From an uncultured Prevotella sp. (GTDB lineage: Bacteria; Bacteroidota; Bacteroidia; Bacteroidales; Bacteroidaceae), in NCBI RefSeq assembly GCF_937863835.1, contig NZ_CALMHT010000072.1:26028-90027 (forward strand): 64,000 bases of DNA, written 5' to 3'. The notes under the pieces are model-generated. The model did not search any database. It worked only from the letters and a program-made list of their open reading frames with translations, and had not been told where the DNA came from. Shown here in pieces: positions 622 to 43,000 of the stretch. Every line of letters starts with the position of its first letter. The first letter of the stretch is position 1. Made by a program: the position numbers and the translations under genes.

Positions 622-1692
622 TTACTTTTCAAGTGGATTCCAGCCTTGCGCTTTCAATTCGAATTCATTACCGTCGCGAGTGGTAAGCATACAACCGAAC
701 TTTTCTTCAGTGATATGACCTATCAATTTTACATCTTCCATATCCTTGATTTTATCAAGGTCTCCTATGGGGACAGTAAACAACAGTTCATAATCTTCTC
801 CGCCATTGAGTGCGCAGGTCGTAACATTCATATTCATTTCTTCGGCCATCACTGCTGTCTGATAATCGATAGGGATATTCTTTTCATATAGGCGGCATCC
901 GCAATGACTTTGTTTGCAAATGTGCAGAATTTCGCTGCTCAGACCGTCACTGATATCCATCATTGATGTGGGATGAATGTCAGCCCCCCTCAGTTTTTCA
1001 AGAATATCACCACGGGCTTCCGGTTTTAATTGACGTTGCAGCAGGTATTCCTTACCGGCGAAATCCGGTTGGAAATGTGACAGTTCATCCAGTTCTTTCT
1101 GATTGCCCTTCTTTTTGGCTTCTTCTACCTGTTGATAATAGACGCTCTTTTCCCGTTCAAGAAGTTGCAGTCCCATGTATGCGGCTCCGAGGTCTCCGCT
1201 TACGCATATCAGGTCGGTATCTTTGGCACCGTGCCTGTATATTATCTTGTCCTTTTCACATTCACCTATACATGTGATGCTGATGGCCAGTCCTGTGAAT
1301 GAAGAGGTGGTGTCTCCACCTACGATATCCACATTCCATTTTTCGCAAGCCATTTTCAGACCATCGTAGAATGCATCCATGTCTTCTATCGTAAACCGTT
1401 TGCTCAAGGCAATGCTGACGACCATTTGCCGGGGGGTGCCGTTCATGGCAAAGATATCACTGATATTAACCATGGCGGCCTTATAACCAAGATGTTGCAT
1501 ATCGATATAAGTAAGGTCGAAATGCACACCCTCCATAAGCAGGTCGTTCGTAACCAGTACTTCCTTGTCAGGATAATGCATGACGGCACAGTCGTCGCCT
1601 ACGCCATAAACACTTGAATCATTCTTTAATTTTATGTCTTCTGTCAGGCGGTCGATCAAGCCAAACTCGCCAAGTTTTGATATTGCTGTCAT
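622..1692 (-). CDS. thiL: Thiamine-monophosphate kinase
   Basis: This is a 356-aa cytosolic enzyme that phosphorylates thiamine monophosphate to thiamine diphosphate with ATP, the last step of thiamine cofactor synthesis. It carries the ThiL/PurM-type signatures: 'GEFGLIDRL' at the N-terminus, the metal and nucleotide site 'VGDDCAV', 'TNDLLMEGVHF', 'VNISDIFAMNG' and 'GGDTTSS', then 'MDISDGL' and 'GGEDYELLFT' in the C-terminal half. Length is normal for the family. The ATG directly abuts the punA stop codon, so it is the last gene of the sppA-lpxK-punA-thiL operon and is probably translationally coupled. Nothing in the sequence suggests damage. Confidence 0.96.
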   Translation of the reverse strand: MTAISKLGEFGLIDRLTEDIKLKNDSSVYGVGDDCAVMHYPDKEVLVTNDLLMEGVHFDLTYIDMQHLGYKAAMVNISDIFAMNGTPRQMVVSIALSKRFTIEDMDAFYDGLKMACEKWNVDIVGGDTTSSFTGLAISITCIGECEKDKIIYRHGAKDTDLICVSGDLGAAYMGLQLLEREKSVYYQQVEEAKKKGNQKELDELSHFQPDFAGKEYLLQRQLKPEARGDILEKLRGADIHPTSMMDISDGLSSEILHICKQSHCGCRLYEKNIPIDYQTAVMAEEMNMNVTTCALNGGEDYELLFTVPIGDLDKIKDMEDVKLIGHITEEKFGCMLTTRDGNEFELKAQGWNPLEK

Positions 1693-2502
1693 TTATGCTC
1701 TTTTTATCATTTCTCTCATTATTTCTGTCATAAGCGGTTGCGCCTTATTGGCAGCGATCTGAACCTCTTCATGACTTACCTCTACGGGACTGCCTTCTAT
1801 GCCCAGGTCGGTAATGATACTGATACCGAATGTCTTAATACCGCAATGATGAGCGACAATGACTTCGGGTACGGTACTCATTCCTACGGCATCTGCACCC
1901 AGACGGTGGTACATCCTATATTCTGCAGGTGTCTCGAATGTCGGTCCTTGTACACCTATATATATGCCATGTACCACACGTATGTCTTTCTCTTTGGCTA
2001 TTTCATCAGCTTCTGCTATAAGAGCTTTGTCGTAGGCTTCGTGCATATCCGGGAAACGTGGTCCGGTGGGAAAATTCTTACCTCTCAAAGGATGTTCAGG
2101 GAAGAAATTGATATGATCTGTTATGATCATCAGATCGCCGATTCTGAATTCAGGGTTCATTCCACCTGATGCGTTGGATACAAACAGAGTCTTGATGCCC
2201 AATTCGTACATGACGCGAATAGGGAATGTAACCTCTTTCATGGAATAACCTTCATAAAAATGGAATCGGCCTTCCATAGCCATAATATCCTTACCGCCCA
2301 GTTTACCGAAAATCAGTTTGCCGGCATGGCCTTCCACCGTAGATACAGGGAAATTAGGTATATCCTTGTATGCGAATTCGTATGTATCAGTTATTTCTGA
2401 AGCTAATTGTCCCAATCCTGTTCCCAGTATGATTGCTGTTTGGGGACTTGTGCTCATCCGTTTTTTTAGCCAGGATGCTGTTTCTTGAATTTTTTCGTAC
2501 AT
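1693..2502 (-). CDS. punA: Purine nucleoside phosphorylase (trimeric PNP-I type)
   Basis: This 269-aa enzyme splits inosine and guanosine with phosphate into base and ribose-1-phosphate for purine salvage. Family marks are the phosphate loop 'ILGTGLG', 'GRFHFYEGYSM', 'VSNASGGMN' with the base-binding region, 'DHINFFPEHPL', and 'VGMSTVPEVIVAHHCG' near the C-terminus, which is typical of the trimeric PNP/MTAP family. The first ~39 codons (2387-2502) overlap the 3' end of lpxK in another frame. The start at 2502 fits the family's N-terminus (a helix, then the strand leading to the GTGLG loop), so the overlap seems real. Its stop touches the thiL start. Confidence 0.95.
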   Translation of the reverse strand: MYEKIQETASWLKKRMSTSPQTAIILGTGLGQLASEITDTYEFAYKDIPNFPVSTVEGHAGKLIFGKLGGKDIMAMEGRFHFYEGYSMKEVTFPIRVMYELGIKTLFVSNASGGMNPEFRIGDLMIITDHINFFPEHPLRGKNFPTGPRFPDMHEAYDKALIAEADEIAKEKDIRVVHGIYIGVQGPTFETPAEYRMYHRLGADAVGMSTVPEVIVAHHCGIKTFGISIITDLGIEGSPVEVSHEEVQIAANKAQPLMTEIMREMIKRA

Positions 2503-3556
2503 ATCCTATAATATTTTCGTTAAACGTATCTTCTTGTCCTAACATAAACTCTACTTCAACAGGTAGTGTATAGATGTTATGCCTTACTTCTTCACTGAGA
2601 CCTTCGTGTCCAAATATGCGTGTGGCATCTTTTTCAGTTGTGATGATTAATTTGGGTGATGGCAAGGCGGCGTACCGGTTGTTGATGTCCTCTATATCAT
2701 CATCGGTAAATTGATGATGATCGCGGTAACGCATCTGTATAATTCGTTGAGTATGAGGTTTGAGATCTTCTATTATTTGTTCGGGAGATGCAATTCCTGT
2801 AAGTAACAGGATGTTGTCTTCTTGTCCGATAGAGTCGAGCGTCTTTTCTTCGCCACAGTAAATAGGTTGAAGATTTCCATAAACCAGTGTCGTAAAATAC
2901 AATTGCTGATATGGATACAAGTCCATAGCTTTTATCATGACCCTGAATTCCATGGGCTTGATGTCTTTCGGACATTTTGTTACTATTACTATATCAGCCC
3001 GTGATTTACCTTCTTTGGGTTCCCTTAGTCTTCCGGCTGGTAATAATTTATCGGCATTAATCATTCTGTGATAGTCGACCAGTAAAATATTTATTCCGGG
3101 TTTTACGTAGCGATGCTGGTAGGCATCGTCTAGTAATATAACATCTGTATATTTCGTCTTTTTGTTATTGCAGATTTGTTCAATTCCGTTACATCTGTTT
3201 TTATCTACCGCTACGGCGATGTTGGGAAACTTTTGTTTCATCTGATACGGTTCATCACCAATGGTTCTCATTCGCGTGTCTTCGTCAGCCAGAACAAATC
3301 CTTTGCTTTTGCGTTTGTATCCTCGGCTAAGTACCGCAATGTTGAATTTGTCTTGAAGCAATCTGATAAGATACTCAACATGTGGGGTTTTGCCTGTTCC
3401 GCCTACTGTGATGTTGCCGACAGATATTACCGGAATATCGAAACTTCGACTTTTCAGTATTCCTATATTAAATAGAAAATTGCGTATTTCCACCCCTAAG
3501 CCGTATAACCAACTGAATGGAAGCAGACTATTGTTTATCTTGATAAAATCATCCAT
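2387..3556 (-). CDS. lpxK: Tetraacyldisaccharide 4'-kinase (lipid A synthesis)
   Basis: LpxK phosphorylates the 4' position of the lipid A disaccharide at the inner face of the cytoplasmic membrane. The 389-aa protein starts with the hydrophobic, membrane-associating N-terminal segment usual for LpxK ('LLPFSWLYGLGVEIRNFLF'), then the P-loop 'GNITVGGTGKTPHVEYL', 'VLSRGYKRKSKGF' and 'ILLDDAYQHRYV'. The C-terminal ~39 residues are basic, low in hydrophobics and read over the punA start; they may be a non-essential extension. sppA ends 26 bp upstream on the same strand. The pairing with punA and thiL looks like a simple operon without an obvious pathway link. Confidence 0.95.
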   Translation of the reverse strand: MDDFIKINNSLLPFSWLYGLGVEIRNFLFNIGILKSRSFDIPVISVGNITVGGTGKTPHVEYLIRLLQDKFNIAVLSRGYKRKSKGFVLADEDTRMRTIGDEPYQMKQKFPNIAVAVDKNRCNGIEQICNNKKTKYTDVILLDDAYQHRYVKPGINILLVDYHRMINADKLLPAGRLREPKEGKSRADIVIVTKCPKDIKPMEFRVMIKAMDLYPYQQLYFTTLVYGNLQPIYCGEEKTLDSIGQEDNILLLTGIASPEQIIEDLKPHTQRIIQMRYRDHHQFTDDDIEDINNRYAALPSPKLIITTEKDATRIFGHEGLSEEVRHNIYTLPVEVEFMLGQEDTFNENIIGYVRKNSRNSILAKKTDEHKSPNSNHTGNRIGTISFRNN

Positions 3557-27237: not shown

Positions 27238-27390
27238 GATGTTTTTTTAAAAAATAACGTCACAATATCGCGGTCGGTCTGTTTATCGATGGTTCAAGGT
27301 GTTGACAACCCCACATATTATCATCGGAACATCACAAGAGTTGTATGCTTTTACTAGAGATGAAAAGTATCTGCCCATTGGTTTTGAACA

Positions 27391-27408
27391 AAATTTAGGC
27401 CTAAATTT
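27391..27408. repeat. 18-bp perfect palindrome, copy 1
   Basis: AAATTTAGGCCTAAATTT reads the same on both strands. Copy 2 lies 65 bp downstream. Confidence 0.85.
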
Positions 27409-27455
27409 GTATCAATCTCAGTGCTTTCGCAGTGCATTTCCATTGGTTTGGCATC

Positions 27456-27471
27456 AAATTTAGGCCTAAAT
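27456..27471. repeat. Palindrome copy 2
   Basis: AAATTTAGGCCTAAAT repeats 16 bases of copy 1, with a 14-bp palindromic core. Together with its right flank it is the inverted-repeat partner of copy 1 and its left flank. Confidence 0.85.
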
Positions 27472-27481
27472 CTTGTTCGAA

Positions 27482-27512
27482 AACAGTGGATTTGTTATTC
27501 AAAACCACTGCT
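27482..27512 (+). repeat. Hairpin inside the element
   Basis: CAGTGG-A-TTTG and CAAA-A-CCACTG form a stem of 6 + 4 bp with one A-A mismatch and a 5-nt loop. Confidence 0.5.
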
Positions 27513-27568
27513 TTTGAAATAGAGGCGGACGATTGTGGAGATATAAATGTTAAAATAAGAATGAACTG

Positions 27569-27589
27569 GTGGCGTTTCTGCCATTTTTT
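27569..27589 (+). terminator. Possible weak terminator inside the element
   Basis: GTGGC and GCCAT pair over a 6-nt loop and are followed by TTTTTT. It could end a transcript running out of the GH28 gene or one starting inside the repeat element. Confidence 0.4.
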
Positions 27590-27768
27590 GTGGTGATATA
27601 AACAGTCAGAACCCCAGTAAAGATGAGGGCTGCGATATTGTGACGTTGTTTTTCAAAAAAAATCTAAGTAGATGTAATATTCCTTCTACTTTTTCCTAAT
27701 AAAAGGGAGCAGTCGGATGTAATGCAAAAAAAATACATCATAATTTTTTTTCTTCTAACAAAACCTAT

Positions 27769-27776
27769 TATCTTTG
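27769..27776 (+). promoter_or_regulatory. -7 box upstream of GH2
   Basis: TATCTTTG matches TAnnTTTG and is followed by CA, as is common. It lies 62 bp before the GH2 ATG. No -33 TTTG is seen at 19-20 bp, which fits an activated PUL promoter. Two GATGTAAT words (27671, 27716) lie upstream. Confidence 0.5.
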
Positions 27777-27838: not shown

Positions 27839-30712
27839 ATGAAGAAATATTTGATCACGATTTTGTTCGCGCTGATGATAGCGGGAACTCATGCGCAAAT
27901 AATGGATGCATTCAAAGGTGTCTTACCTGTAACGGATAAGTCGGATGTCGTCAGTCTGAACGGAACATGGAAATTCATGCTCATACGCGGGCTTGACTAT
28001 AGCCGTTGTGGGGATTTTTATCAAAACAGTTATGATGATAGTTCATGGAATACAATTCATGTCCCTGCCAATTGGGATGCCATAGGACTGACGGAACCTA
28101 AATATGGAAGTCCTGACAGTCTGACGGGATTACATCGCACTACATTTATTGTACCTCGTCAATGGAAAGGACAACATACGTTTCTTAGGTTTGACGGCGT
28201 ATTGTATGGTTATGATGTTTGGGTAAACGGAAAATATGCCGGTAAATGGGAATCCGCTTTCAATACATGCCTGTTTGATGTTACTCGTTTTGTTGACTAT
28301 GATACGGTTAACACTCTTGCCGTCAGGGTATATACGAAATGTAAAGGTTCTGATTTTGATTGTAATGATGACTGGGCACCAGTTGGAATCTTCAGGGATG
28401 TTACGATGTTTCCGATACCTGATCTGCATTTTAGTGATATCACTATACGCACAGACCAACTCGGTCGGAACAGTGCCACGGTATCTTACGATTTGAAAAT
28501 ATCTTCGTTTGATAAACAGAAAATTCGCAATGCAAATGTAGAAGCTTCCATTTTTGATAAAGAAGGTCGAAAGGTGGGGACCTTTAATATTCCTATAAAA
28601 GATACTGTTACAATGCATAAGGAACTGGTATTTACAGATCCGCATTTATGGACAGCCGAAACACCATATCTGTACAATCTGGAACTTACACTGTATAGTG
28701 GCAACAAATCCATACAGAGGGTAACAAAGAAATTCGGTATAAGGAAGACGACCATTGAGGGGAGAGTATTCAAGCTCAATGGCATCGCTTTTAAAATACA
28801 TGGCGTAACATTCCATTCCACAGATCCTATGACAGGTAAAGTAATCAGCGAGGCTTCACTAAAAAAAGACTTAAAAATGATGAAAGCAGCGAACGTAAAC
28901 TATATTCGCACATCTCATTATCCACAGCCTCCAATATTTTATGACTTGTGCGATTCTCTTGGAATGTATGTGATAGATGAAGTTCCTTTCGGATATGGGG
29001 ACAAGAATCTTTCTGATTCTACCTATCAGGATATACTGCTCACACGTGCCAAGGCTACGGTAGAGAGAGACAAGAATCATCCCTGCGTTATCGTCTGGAG
29101 CATAGGTAATGAAAACCCTCTTACTCCGATTTCGGAAGTCACAGGACAATATGTGAAAAAAATAGATCCTTCTCGTCCTATCTGTTATCCGATGGTAGGT
29201 AGCTATTTCGCCAAACGGAATTTTGATATGCCTTCTTTTATCGATATATATTCACCACATTATCCATCTGCTGATAAGATAACACAATATGATAAAAAGA
29301 CGACGAAACCAATAATCTTTACAGAATACAGTCATTCTTTGGGACAATCTTTTGAAGATCACAAACCTCGTTGGGAGGCTATGTATGCAGCTACGGCGGT
29401 AACCGGTGGCAGTGTCTGGGAATGGGTTGACCAAGGAATGCCATTCAAGGCGAAGAGAACGGATTTTTACCAATGGACCGATAGCGTCTGGACTAGTACG
29501 GAAGGCGGATTTATGATGTGTGGAAATAAGGGTACTGATGGCATATTATATGCAGACAGAACACCGTTACCTAATTATTATGAATTGCAGCGTAATTATG
29601 CACAAGCTCAGGTAGTAGATTCTGTTTTCACGATAGCATCTGATAATCGCTCCATACCTATTACGATAAGGAACAGATATGATTTTATCAATTTGAAAAA
29701 TAATATCAGATTCAATTGGTTCTTGACAGCAGATAATGATACAATACAGAATGGCACTTTTACGACCGATTGTATGCCTCACGACCTGGTTACATACAAT
29801 ATAAAATTGAATGCTGACAGAATACCTTCGCAAAAATTGATGATGTTACATGTTGATGTTATAAATCATGATGGACTAAAACTCAATAATCAAGTATTGA
29901 TGATGTCAGGTAACTCTTCTGTGACAGAGCGACTTCTGTCTTCCGGTGTTGGCAGTGCCTCGCCATTTGACTATATACAAAGAGGACCGTTAATGAGAGT
30001 CGGCCGTAAAAGTACCATAGCTGAGGATATAACGACGAAAGGCAAGCGATTGACCAAATATCTGATGGATATAAAATCCAAAGATAAATCTCATTATGTG
30101 TATGAGAATGATTCTATTAAAATAAGTGGTATCGTGAATTGTACTAAGTACAAAAAGACTGTCAAAGTGGACTATAAATTAATACCTGAAAAATCAAAGA
30201 ATCTGTTATTGGAAACGGGTTTGGCATTCCTTTTAGATAAAAATCTGTCGAAAGTACAGTGGATTGGTTATGGTCCTTATGCTTCATATCCTGGTAAGAT
30301 GTGCTCGAACAGTTATGGATTCCATTCTATGCAGGAGGGAGACTTATACTTTGAAGGTAACAGAATGGGGGTAGATGCTGCAATTATTACAGATGACAAT
30401 GGTAACGGTATCATGATAATATGTAAGGATGGAAAAATTAACTTTGAACAGACAGACAAAGGTATTGTATTGACTTATAATTCTTATGTTTCAGGTCTGG
30501 GACCTAAATCGGGTCTTACTCATTATGCTGTTTATGCAGATAAGTTAAAGGAGATATCTGGTTCTTTTTATCTTTGTAAAATAAATAGTATGGATATACT
30601 GAAGTTAAAGGGATTGTTTGTTAACCCACAACAAGTGAAAAAGGTTTTCAATCCGTTCCGTTCTCAGTATGACACATACTTATTGAAATTCAATAATATT
30701 TTGAGTGAATAA
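27839..30712 (+). CDS. GH2 glycosidase, LacZ-like architecture (probable beta-galactosidase)
   Basis: This 957-aa exported enzyme has a signal peptide ending 'AGTHAQ' (~20). Domains in order are a GH2 jelly-roll ('SLNGTWKFMLIRG', 'FLRFDGVLYGYDVWVNGKYAGKWESAF'), an Ig-like domain, a TIM barrel with acid/base Glu in 'VWSIGNENPL' (~422) and nucleophile Glu in 'IIFTEYSHSLG' (~494), and a C-terminal beta-galactosidase small-chain-type region with 'WIGYGPYASYPGK'. The five-domain LacZ layout suggests exo-beta-galactosidase activity on galactan or arabinogalactan side chains. GH2 also includes glucuronidases and others, so substrate remains open. It is a single-gene unit facing the convergent GH27. 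Confidence 0.9.
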   Translation: MKKYLITILFALMIAGTHAQIMDAFKGVLPVTDKSDVVSLNGTWKFMLIRGLDYSRCGDFYQNSYDDSSWNTIHVPANWDAIGLTEPKYGSPDSLTGLHRTTFIVPRQWKGQHTFLRFDGVLYGYDVWVNGKYAGKWESAFNTCLFDVTRFVDYDTVNTLAVRVYTKCKGSDFDCNDDWAPVGIFRDVTMFPIPDLHFSDITIRTDQLGRNSATVSYDLKISSFDKQKIRNANVEASIFDKEGRKVGTFNIPIKDTVTMHKELVFTDPHLWTAETPYLYNLELTLYSGNKSIQRVTKKFGIRKTTIEGRVFKLNGIAFKIHGVTFHSTDPMTGKVISEASLKKDLKMMKAANVNYIRTSHYPQPPIFYDLCDSLGMYVIDEVPFGYGDKNLSDSTYQDILLTRAKATVERDKNHPCVIVWSIGNENPLTPISEVTGQYVKKIDPSRPICYPMVGSYFAKRNFDMPSFIDIYSPHYPSADKITQYDKKTTKPIIFTEYSHSLGQSFEDHKPRWEAMYAATAVTGGSVWEWVDQGMPFKAKRTDFYQWTDSVWTSTEGGFMMCGNKGTDGILYADRTPLPNYYELQRNYAQAQVVDSVFTIASDNRSIPITIRNRYDFINLKNNIRFNWFLTADNDTIQNGTFTTDCMPHDLVTYNIKLNADRIPSQKLMMLHVDVINHDGLKLNNQVLMMSGNSSVTERLLSSGVGSASPFDYIQRGPLMRVGRKSTIAEDITTKGKRLTKYLMDIKSKDKSHYVYENDSIKISGIVNCTKYKKTVKVDYKLIPEKSKNLLLETGLAFLLDKNLSKVQWIGYGPYASYPGKMCSNSYGFHSMQEGDLYFEGNRMGVDAAIITDDNGNGIMIICKDGKINFEQTDKGIVLTYNSYVSGLGPKSGLTHYAVYADKLKEISGSFYLCKINSMDILKLKGLFVNPQQVKKVFNPFRSQYDTYLLKFNNILSE

Positions 30713-40046: not shown

Positions 40047-43000
40047 ATGAAAAGAATTCTACTAATCCTTCTTGCCGTAATACCTTTGCATAATGCAGCT
40101 CAGCGACTCCAACAAGCAATGGACCGCAGTGTAGTGGCTGTACACAGAGGAACAAATGTGACGGTTACATGGCGGAAACTGATACAAGACCCTGACAGTT
40201 GTACGTACAATCTGTTTATAAGGAATGTGGGAGGTTCTGATTATACGAAAGTAAACGCATCTCCACTGAAAGGTACCAATCTTGTATCCAACTTGTCCGT
40301 TATTCCATATAATTCTGAATTGTCGGTATCTACTGTCAATAAGGACGGAACCGAAAATGTGAAAAGTGCCCCGTTCCTGTTCAAACAGCAAACATATAAC
40401 AATGCTTTTGTGGATATCAACTTTGAGACCAAAGTGTTGACTCCGGATAAGTACAGGGCATCATACGTGTGGCCCGCCGATCTGAACGGAGATGGTCTGA
40501 TGAATGAATATGTAGTAGACCGTAAGTATCGAGATTCGATAGCGACGGATAATAAAAATTCGATGCTACAGGCATATTCCGCAGACGGCACTTGTCTGTG
40601 GACGGTGGATATGGGACCGAATGTAAATATAGATACCGGTCAGAATGACATGGTCGAGGTTTATGATATCAATTGTGACGGTAAGGCGGAAGTGATGGTA
40701 AAGAGCAGTGATGGTACCAGATTCTGGAACTCGTCTACAAAGGATTGGGGCACTTATGTTTTTGGCAAGACGATCCCTGATATAGATAATGATGGAATAA
40801 CCGATTATACGGTCAGTGGTCTGAAACGAAATCCTCCGTTTTATATTTCAGTGATTAATGGTATGACAGGAGAAGAGATGGTCTCATCGGAACTGGACTA
40901 TTCTCAGGTGCATGACGGTGCAGACCAATATACACGTGACAACCGCGCAGACTATATGGACGATGATTATTATACCATGGGCGGACATTTCGCCATTTGT
41001 TATTTTGATGGCATACATCCTTCTCTGGTCATGGAATGTTTGGATCGTACCAAATCAGACCAAGTACACCATAATTATGTATTTGCTTTCGGATATGACT
41101 GGGATGGTAATACGCCTTCAAATTTCCACCATTATTATACGTGGAGCCGTAATGACAAGACACCGTGGCCGGCAGAATTTCATCAGTTGAGAGTGTGTGA
41201 TGTCGACGGCAACGGTATAGATGAGATGCTGCAGGGTGGGTATGGCGTCAATGCGAAAGAGGGTATGGTGTTCAGTGCGGGCATAGGTCATGGAGACCGT
41301 TTCCGTGTGAGCGACATAGATCCGAACCGTCCTGGACTTGAAACCTATGCCATACAGCAGAGCGATCTGTTAGGACAGTTGTTGTACGAATCCGCCACAG
41401 GTAAACATATTAAAGAGTGGTATCTGCCCAGTGTTACCGATGTAGGGCGTGGAGAATGTATGGATGTGGATCCGTCCCATAAGGGATATGAGATATACAG
41501 TACGATGGCTAATTTGTACGACTGCGAGGGCAATGTAGTTAAATCTTACGATGCAGGTGCCGGTGCATTCCCTTATGAAGGAATATGGTGGGACGGCGAC
41601 CTGGGTAGGGAGACTCTTGCTTCTAACGGTGGCAGCGGTTATGCCACGAATATGCTTGTATCCAATTATGATGAGGTGAAAAGTTATAATCGCATGATCG
41701 AATTTTCTAAAGAAAGCAGTTGGGATATTCATGGTACAAACGGAGCCAGACCTGGATTTATAGGCGATATGACGGGAGACTGGAGAGAAGAGGTAATCCT
41801 GTTTAAGCAAGATGCTTCTTCAAGTACCGGATTTGTGGGGTATTCCACCGACATAGCTACCGATTACAATTTGTATTGTCTGCAACAAGATGCTCATTAT
41901 CGTCTTGACTGTACGACAAGAGGTTATTATCAGAGTCCTAATACGGATTTCTATCTGGGATATGATATGCCTGCACCGCCATTGCCTCCTTCTGTGGTTA
42001 CAGACCTGAGATGGAAAAAAGGTGCGAACATATCGAAATCTTCGTCAGGTTTTACCTCTTTTGATATGGGTAGCGATGAAAACTTTGCAGACGGGAAGAG
42101 TCTGATGTTCGATATATCCGGTGATAATTCACAGACTATAAATATATCCGACGAACTTAAACCGTCATCAGTCTATCTGATGACACCTAAAAACCATGAT
42201 TATGCATTCACCATATCAGGGAAATTGTCAGGTACGATGAATCTTTATAAGTCTATGCAGGGTACGGCTACGATTAACGGGAATCTGGATTATACGGGCA
42301 GTACCGTAATAAGTGAGGGTACTCTTGATGTGAACGGTTCCATTGCCGGTCGTGTACGACTGATGGCGAAAGGTTCGCTAAGTGGCAATGCAGTAGTAAA
42401 TGATATTGCATTCGAAGGTGGACTTAATTATGAAGGGTGTAGACTGATGCCGGGCGACGATACCAATTATGGCAAGATTACAATATCCAGATCAGTAACG
42501 ATGCCAGGTAATGTATATACGCAGTTGAAAGTCAATGCCACTACGGGGCAACAAGACTTTCTGACTGTGCAAGGCGACCTCGTATATAAGGGTAATAACA
42601 CTTTCACGATTGTCAATAAGGGTAGTGCCATGACACAAGGATCGTATATTCTGGCTCAATGCACAGGTAGTATGACTGTTAATACAGACAGTATCACGAT
42701 ACGTGGACTTGTCGGAATTCCGTATACCGTAAAAGCAGATGGTAATAAACTGCTGTTGGTCGTTAATGAGACTCGTAAGGCTTCCGATTATGTACGTTGG
42801 ATAGGAAACGTAAGTACATTATGGGACTTCCATACAAACAATTTCGTACTGGGTACGACTGCTACTCCTTTCGTTTCGGGCGATATAATCACTTTCGGCG
42901 ATGAGGCCAAGCAACGCAATATCCTATTGAATGAACAGATTATAGCCAAATCGGTGATATTTGATTTCGACCAAGGGAATTACAATCTTTCAGGCACTGG

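Follow-up and report, generated by a model that had tools for sequence, protein, structure and literature searches.

Bacterial MITEs are accounted for as remnants of insertion sequences that a transposase moves. Among the described repeats that come closest to the one reported here, BrickBuilt, a MITE of Porphyromonas gingivalis, contains an internal tandem repeat (PMC4596501), and PINSR, known from the Prevotella intermedia/nigrescens group, is an intergenic repeat of 188 bp that reaches up to 184 copies and is reported to be without terminal inverted repeats (PMC4755523). The element that we describe is like BrickBuilt in being non-coding and intergenic, with inverted ends and an internal repeat, and like PINSR in being a lineage-restricted, intergenic repeat that occurs in many copies within the genus Prevotella. 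By their descriptions both are nevertheless set apart from it, as the TIRs of BrickBuilt have been compared with IS elements, whereas the coding kin of our element carry a primase-helicase and a DUF6078 protein, and PINSR has neither TIRs nor a described coding partner; a primase-helicase partner has been described for neither repeat. A VapE-type helicase and a presumed origin made of repeats also recall the replication module of SaPIs and phage satellites (VapE-type Rep, PDB 7pds), but the present family differs in its inverted ends, its many non-coding derivatives and its lack of integrase, repressor or packaging genes, only two ORFs being found between the ends of the coding members in two genomes (G040 and G396). 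REP/BIME sequences are likewise palindromic modules at gene 3' ends that build mosaic composites; those are, however, 20-40-bp hairpins tied to a RAYT transposase, while here there are defined ends of 80-100 bp and a coding relative.

The window, by which we mean the whole stretch of 64,000 nucleotides analysed here from an uncultured Prevotella sp. (RefSeq assembly GCF_937863835.1, contig NZ_CALMHT010000072.1, positions 26,028 to 90,027), contains an intergenic gap of 601 bp between a stop codon (27237) and the ATG that follows it at 27839. A preliminary description had pointed to a nested inverted-repeat element in this gap, and its structural observations are confirmed: no ORF of at least 80 aa lies within the 601 bp, the exact 16-bp core AACGTCACAATATCGC at 27256-27271 (plus strand) recurs as its reverse complement at 27632-27647 (minus strand), 376 bp away from start to start, and the match does continue outward through A/T-rich bases, giving an outer inverted repeat of 30 nt at 93% (27242-27271 / 27632-27661). 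The nested repeat is also present and is slightly longer than the 29 bp first claimed for it, its arms at 27375-27409 (plus strand) and 27455-27489 (minus strand) matching over 35 nt at 89%. Each arm holds the palindrome TTAGGCCTAA, at 27395-27404 and 27460-27469 respectively, and the two form a double-palindrome module (27395-27469) that measures exactly 75 bp from outer edge to outer edge. Positions 27256-27647 are a bounded element in which two inverted ends of about 80 bp flank the TTAGGCCTAA palindrome pair. The left end, or A-end (80 bp, 27256-27335, plus strand), matches the end models R1 and R2 that are introduced below, and a site scan reads it as head-to-tail AACGTCAC/AATATCGC sites, then a stretch that opens with CTGTTTAT, then more AACRTCAC-like sites at 27307 and 27328; the right end (27569-27647, minus strand) is an inverted copy of the end sequence. 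The left end was itself in the model that it matches (E=1.1e-13 genome-wide, 2.3e-13 in the window), and the right end, which was excluded from model building, is matched with E-values of 1.8e-6 (window) and 5.9e-5 (whole genome); against a profile from which the window copy had been left out, the element centre scores E=4.8e-17 in the window. Folding of both strands, a check that the preliminary description had proposed, gave structures far better than those of shuffled sequences (z-scores of -7.9 for the plus and -8.8 for the minus strand), and these scores, together with the independent right-end and centre matches, place the element beyond chance. As limits of the functional unit we favour 27256-27647 with about 14 bp of A/T-rich flank on either side, namely TTTTTTTAAAAAAT at 27242-27255, which belongs to the outer inverted repeat, and GTTTTTCAAAAAAA at 27648-27661; A/T-rich outer flanks are present in other copies as well.

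The same kinds of sequence are dispersed through the 3.34-Mb genome, where a DNA search returned 45 matching places and about 30 related copies can be assigned to four layouts, mostly at gene 3' ends. The outer end sequence recurs across the genome, as does the inner module, of which both TTAGGCCTAA palindromes are present in every copy, spanning 75 bp in 21 of the 22 distinct copies and 74 bp in one. Class I copies consist of the ends only and are about 200 bp long (contigs C133, C179 and C49). Class II copies (351-424 bp), which include the window copy, those on C118, C155, C122 and C47 and two on C20, have the ends and the double palindrome; the class III layout (about 17 copies) leads from one end through the double palindrome into other modules, and that of class IV (C91, C17, C149 and C48, the C149 copy being cut by its contig end) from one end into arrays such as TTACGGCGGTGCCGTAA and mostly then into GGTGGAGG repeats. 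Class III and IV copies pair unlike ends, and many intergenic repeats of this kind sit at contig ends in this assembly. The GGTGGAGG repeats (L074 555-651, L081 5007-5104, L070 3934-4032 and L069 5297-5395) occur, in several class III and IV copies, three times at an 11-bp periodicity and a fourth time 74-76 bp beyond, and by comparison with locus L249 they look like the end of another subfamily. For five class II copies the distance from a 3' gene end is 8-61 bp, four of these being between convergent genes, and the copies on C122 and C179 adjoin a hairpin-plus-T-tract terminator; such siting just past genes may have to do with the choice of target or with which copies survive. A coding element with ACGTCAC-type ends like those of the window copy did not turn up in this genome, and a search of the local copies for helicase remnants, a weak test that also missed two positive controls, detected none.

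Elsewhere in the genus, the TTAGGCCTAA double-palindrome module did not turn up in any other of the 398 genomes sampled. The end model R1 recognised related ends in two other species, and the model R2, built from both sets of ends (those of the window genome and those of the species found by R1), identifies confident multi-copy end families in 6 of the 398 genomes, the window's species included, and weak one- or two-copy matches in eight further species. The one-contig genome G040 has thirteen inverted end pairs, twelve of them 723-1065 bp apart and one 3114 bp apart, and one pair in G396 is likewise separated by 3114 bp. The search for other copies that the preliminary description had called for has therefore found them both dispersed in the window's own genome and, as kin elements, in other members of the genus, and the sequence is not peculiar to this locus. 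When the exact double-palindrome pattern was run against 84,980 species genomes and IMG/VR, seven records contained matches. In one of these (L059, JAKPAB010000285.1) the match is a true class III copy, on a contig that is filed under Bacillota MAG USSF_maxbin.063 and was probably misbinned from a Bacteroidales genome; the other six do not share the element. Plasmid and phage collections yielded no window element, and the plasmid collection no G040 element. A non-coding segment of 0.7-1.1 kb is repeated beside single R2-type ends in G040 and G396 (L183, L184, L206 and L356), as a further element layout of which the second end is not recognised. At the boundary of 36 ends in the related species, no target-site duplication is evident by eye. 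Empty sites, which the preliminary description had suggested seeking in relatives, did not turn up, a 400-kb sample of G396 having no clean empty allele; the sample does include one insertion common to G174 and G396 (L195 / L349), and L210 and L356 mark a same site that is occupied by different elements.

The coding members of the family are units of about 3.1 kb bounded by long inverted ends. Between bracketing inverted repeats of 156-158 bp, the 3114-bp units of G040 and G396 contain exactly two genes in the same order, for DUF6078 (PF19555; 150 aa) and then for a primase-helicase of 710 aa with BT4734-like_N, VapE-like and DUF3874 domains, and a tandem palindrome array sits between the two; in G141 and G265 the same primase-helicase gene lies 16 bp and 31 bp, respectively, from such an end. 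No transposase was recognised inside the end pairs of G040 and G396 or found beside their single ends. BT4734-like proteins are one of the archaeo-eukaryotic primase families, and for ATPases with a VirE domain (PF05272) a helicase role in the replication of mobile elements is predicted (PMC5862659). In the PDB the primase-helicase matches a single entry, 7pds ('Similar to D. nodosus vapE'), and DUF6078 none. Four cysteines are invariant in DUF6078; its name led to no paper in the literature searched, and a single-protein search of viral contigs did not find it. Close VapE relatives are rare in IMG/VR, and short 'phage' scaffolds with VapE were set aside as candidate circular intermediates, being linear and unverified records. 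When the short elements of G040, G141, G174 and G396 are aligned to the G040 coding unit, they match its ends and its array, colinearly in blocks 1-165, 704-852 and 2907-3154, and in L182, L186, L189, L190 and L196 the last of these blocks holds the final ~135 nt of the helicase ORF (910-3042). Because both ends, the array and, in several, the 3' part of the helicase gene are kept, these 0.72-1.07-kb elements are internal-deletion derivatives, and the non-coding elements of the four genomes accordingly descend from the two-gene unit.

Homologues of the helicase are found far more widely than the end family, in 228 of the 398 genus genomes, and DUF6078 is encoded immediately upstream in 26 of 30 homologous loci. 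A bracketing inverted repeat scores above every shuffle at 21 of the 30 loci and above the 95% cross-locus control at 19, with no inverted repeat above controls at the remaining 9-11. These repeats differ between loci, and many contain a reiterated short motif, such as TTGCCTACATTGCCTACACT or CCACTTCCACCACTT, as read by eye on the loci inspected; in Parabacteroides distasonis the same gene pair is surrounded by repeated ATCTACC / GGTAGATG. We read this as suggesting that each helicase homologue has its own end motif. The window's own genome has such a gene pair on C137 (L249, G000:C137:1-3070), where a VapE-like gene is followed by an CCTCCACC-type end, DUF6078, a palindrome array and another end, of CCTCCACC or GGTGGAGG type. 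Unlike in G040, the helicase gene of C137 is located outside the end ahead of DUF6078, and the pair carries CCTCCACC ends, not ACGTCAC. Further instances of the CCTCCACC end occur in local copies of classes III and IV, and of the C137 array in class IV copies.

The way in which the copies have diverged bears on how the repeats might act. Across 16 class III copies, L059 from another public record among them, 283 aligned columns have accumulated at least 247 substitutions and no indel, at a mean pairwise difference of 21% (up to 35%), and the adjacent 95 bp of class III copies has at least 4 indels; a coding reading of the conserved stretch was ruled out by stops in every frame. In the two class II copies on C20 the central ~111 bp are identical and the sequence outside is about 85% alike. 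The lack of indels and the conserved centre indicate that spacing has been preserved, as it would be for a DNA-protein complex. The same two loci (L042 and L043, G000:C20:16588-16958 and 40690-41060) also have about 150 bp of outer flank in common. An alternative that the preliminary description had allowed for, a large structured RNA produced from the gap, would agree with the folding scores of the element, but nested inverted repeats fold well on both strands in any case, an Rfam scan gave no family that reaches its gathering score, covariation in the inner hairpin of 23 copies is close to that of shuffles (0.093 versus 0.081), and RNAalifold on 23 copies kept no both-side change in the predicted hairpin core. 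We regard such an RNA as very improbable, and conclude from these comparisons that the repeats are in all likelihood DNA sites, fixed spacing without compensatory changes being what is expected of a protein that binds double-stranded DNA and not of a folded RNA. Strict spacing and a palindrome module that is better conserved than its surroundings could also belong to a domesticated structural or regulatory repeat of the REP/BIME kind, serving as nucleoid-protein sites or as a terminator or insulator at gene 3' ends, and the siting of copies 8-61 bp after gene ends, often between convergent pairs, and the one copy locus common to two species would suit such a role. We think it rather improbable, however, as an account of elements that have defined ends and a patchy distribution among species, and that in sister species include deletion derivatives of a coding element.

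The MITE-type reading of the preliminary description stands in part. The window element is short and without coding capacity, has terminal inverted repeats and shares its ends with copies dispersed through the genome, and it has relatives in other species; a target-site duplication was not seen at the ends examined in related species, and a cognate autonomous element with a transposase, the ordinary helper, was not found. Some transposons produce no target-site duplication. Were the element an ordinary MITE, a classical transposase, located elsewhere or lost, would recognise the ends, and DUF6078 and the primase-helicase would be mere cargo. Like bacterial MITEs, the copies are TIR-bounded, non-coding, dispersed and intergenic (PMC10969869). 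We nevertheless find this explanation unlikely, given that no transposase lies between the end pairs examined or beside the single ends of G040 and G396, that target duplication is not seen, and that the two genes keep company at 26 of 30 loci with locus-specific end motifs, which is unlike the behaviour of cargo.

The explanation that we prefer is that the window element is probably a non-autonomous, MITE-like member of an undescribed transposon-like family that would be mobilised by way of a replication protein, a judgement that covers end-family membership and mechanism jointly. That the window copy belongs to the end family is likely in its own right, and for the replication-protein mechanism the chances appear to be roughly even. 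The copy is linked to the coding unit by end homology and by an equivalent layout, in that it has homologous ends and a central palindromic module. The sequence of that module differs from the arrays of the other species, and its equivalence to them rests on position and palindromic nature. Mechanistically, the primase-helicase would open and prime the element at the palindromic module, the palindromes being its binding site or replication origin, and the reiterated motifs in the ends would be recognition sites of the primase-helicase or of DUF6078 that mark the segment to copy. Short copies with ends and central palindromes might then be copied or moved in trans, and the window copy would act likewise, with its species-specific TTAGGCCTAA palindrome pair as the central module; candidates for joining the copy to a new site are DUF6078, a host recombinase or an unseen transposase. 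In its fullest form, which we put forward tentatively and at somewhat less than even odds, the proposal is of transposable elements without a transposase, in which a two-gene unit (cysteine-rich DUF6078 and an archaeo-eukaryotic-type primase fused to a VapE helicase) replicates from the palindrome array, uses end sites specific to itself and mobilises MITE-like derivatives in trans, the window copy included. One end family here offers both coding and non-coding members that can be aligned with each other, and what the coding members encode is a replication protein together with a cysteine-rich protein that is uncharacterised. If DUF6078 and the primase-helicase do move the elements, a different transposition chemistry would be in wide use within a major genus of the gut, and the homologues, many in number and unlike in their end motifs, are a ready set for tests of co-specificity between protein and end; at the least, a large class of intergenic repeats is explained.

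At the locus itself, the element begins 18 bp past the stop of a putative GH28-like gene and ends about 190 bp before a putative GH2-like gene, both names being read off the protein sequences. Its effect there is likely to be passive, in that it would put distance between the end of the GH28-like gene and the promoter of the gene that follows, and a polar or insulating effect on the neighbouring genes is possible. A promoter-like TAnnTTTG motif, which we take to be the Bacteroidota promoter consensus, lies upstream of the GH2-like gene at 27769-27776, just outside the element.
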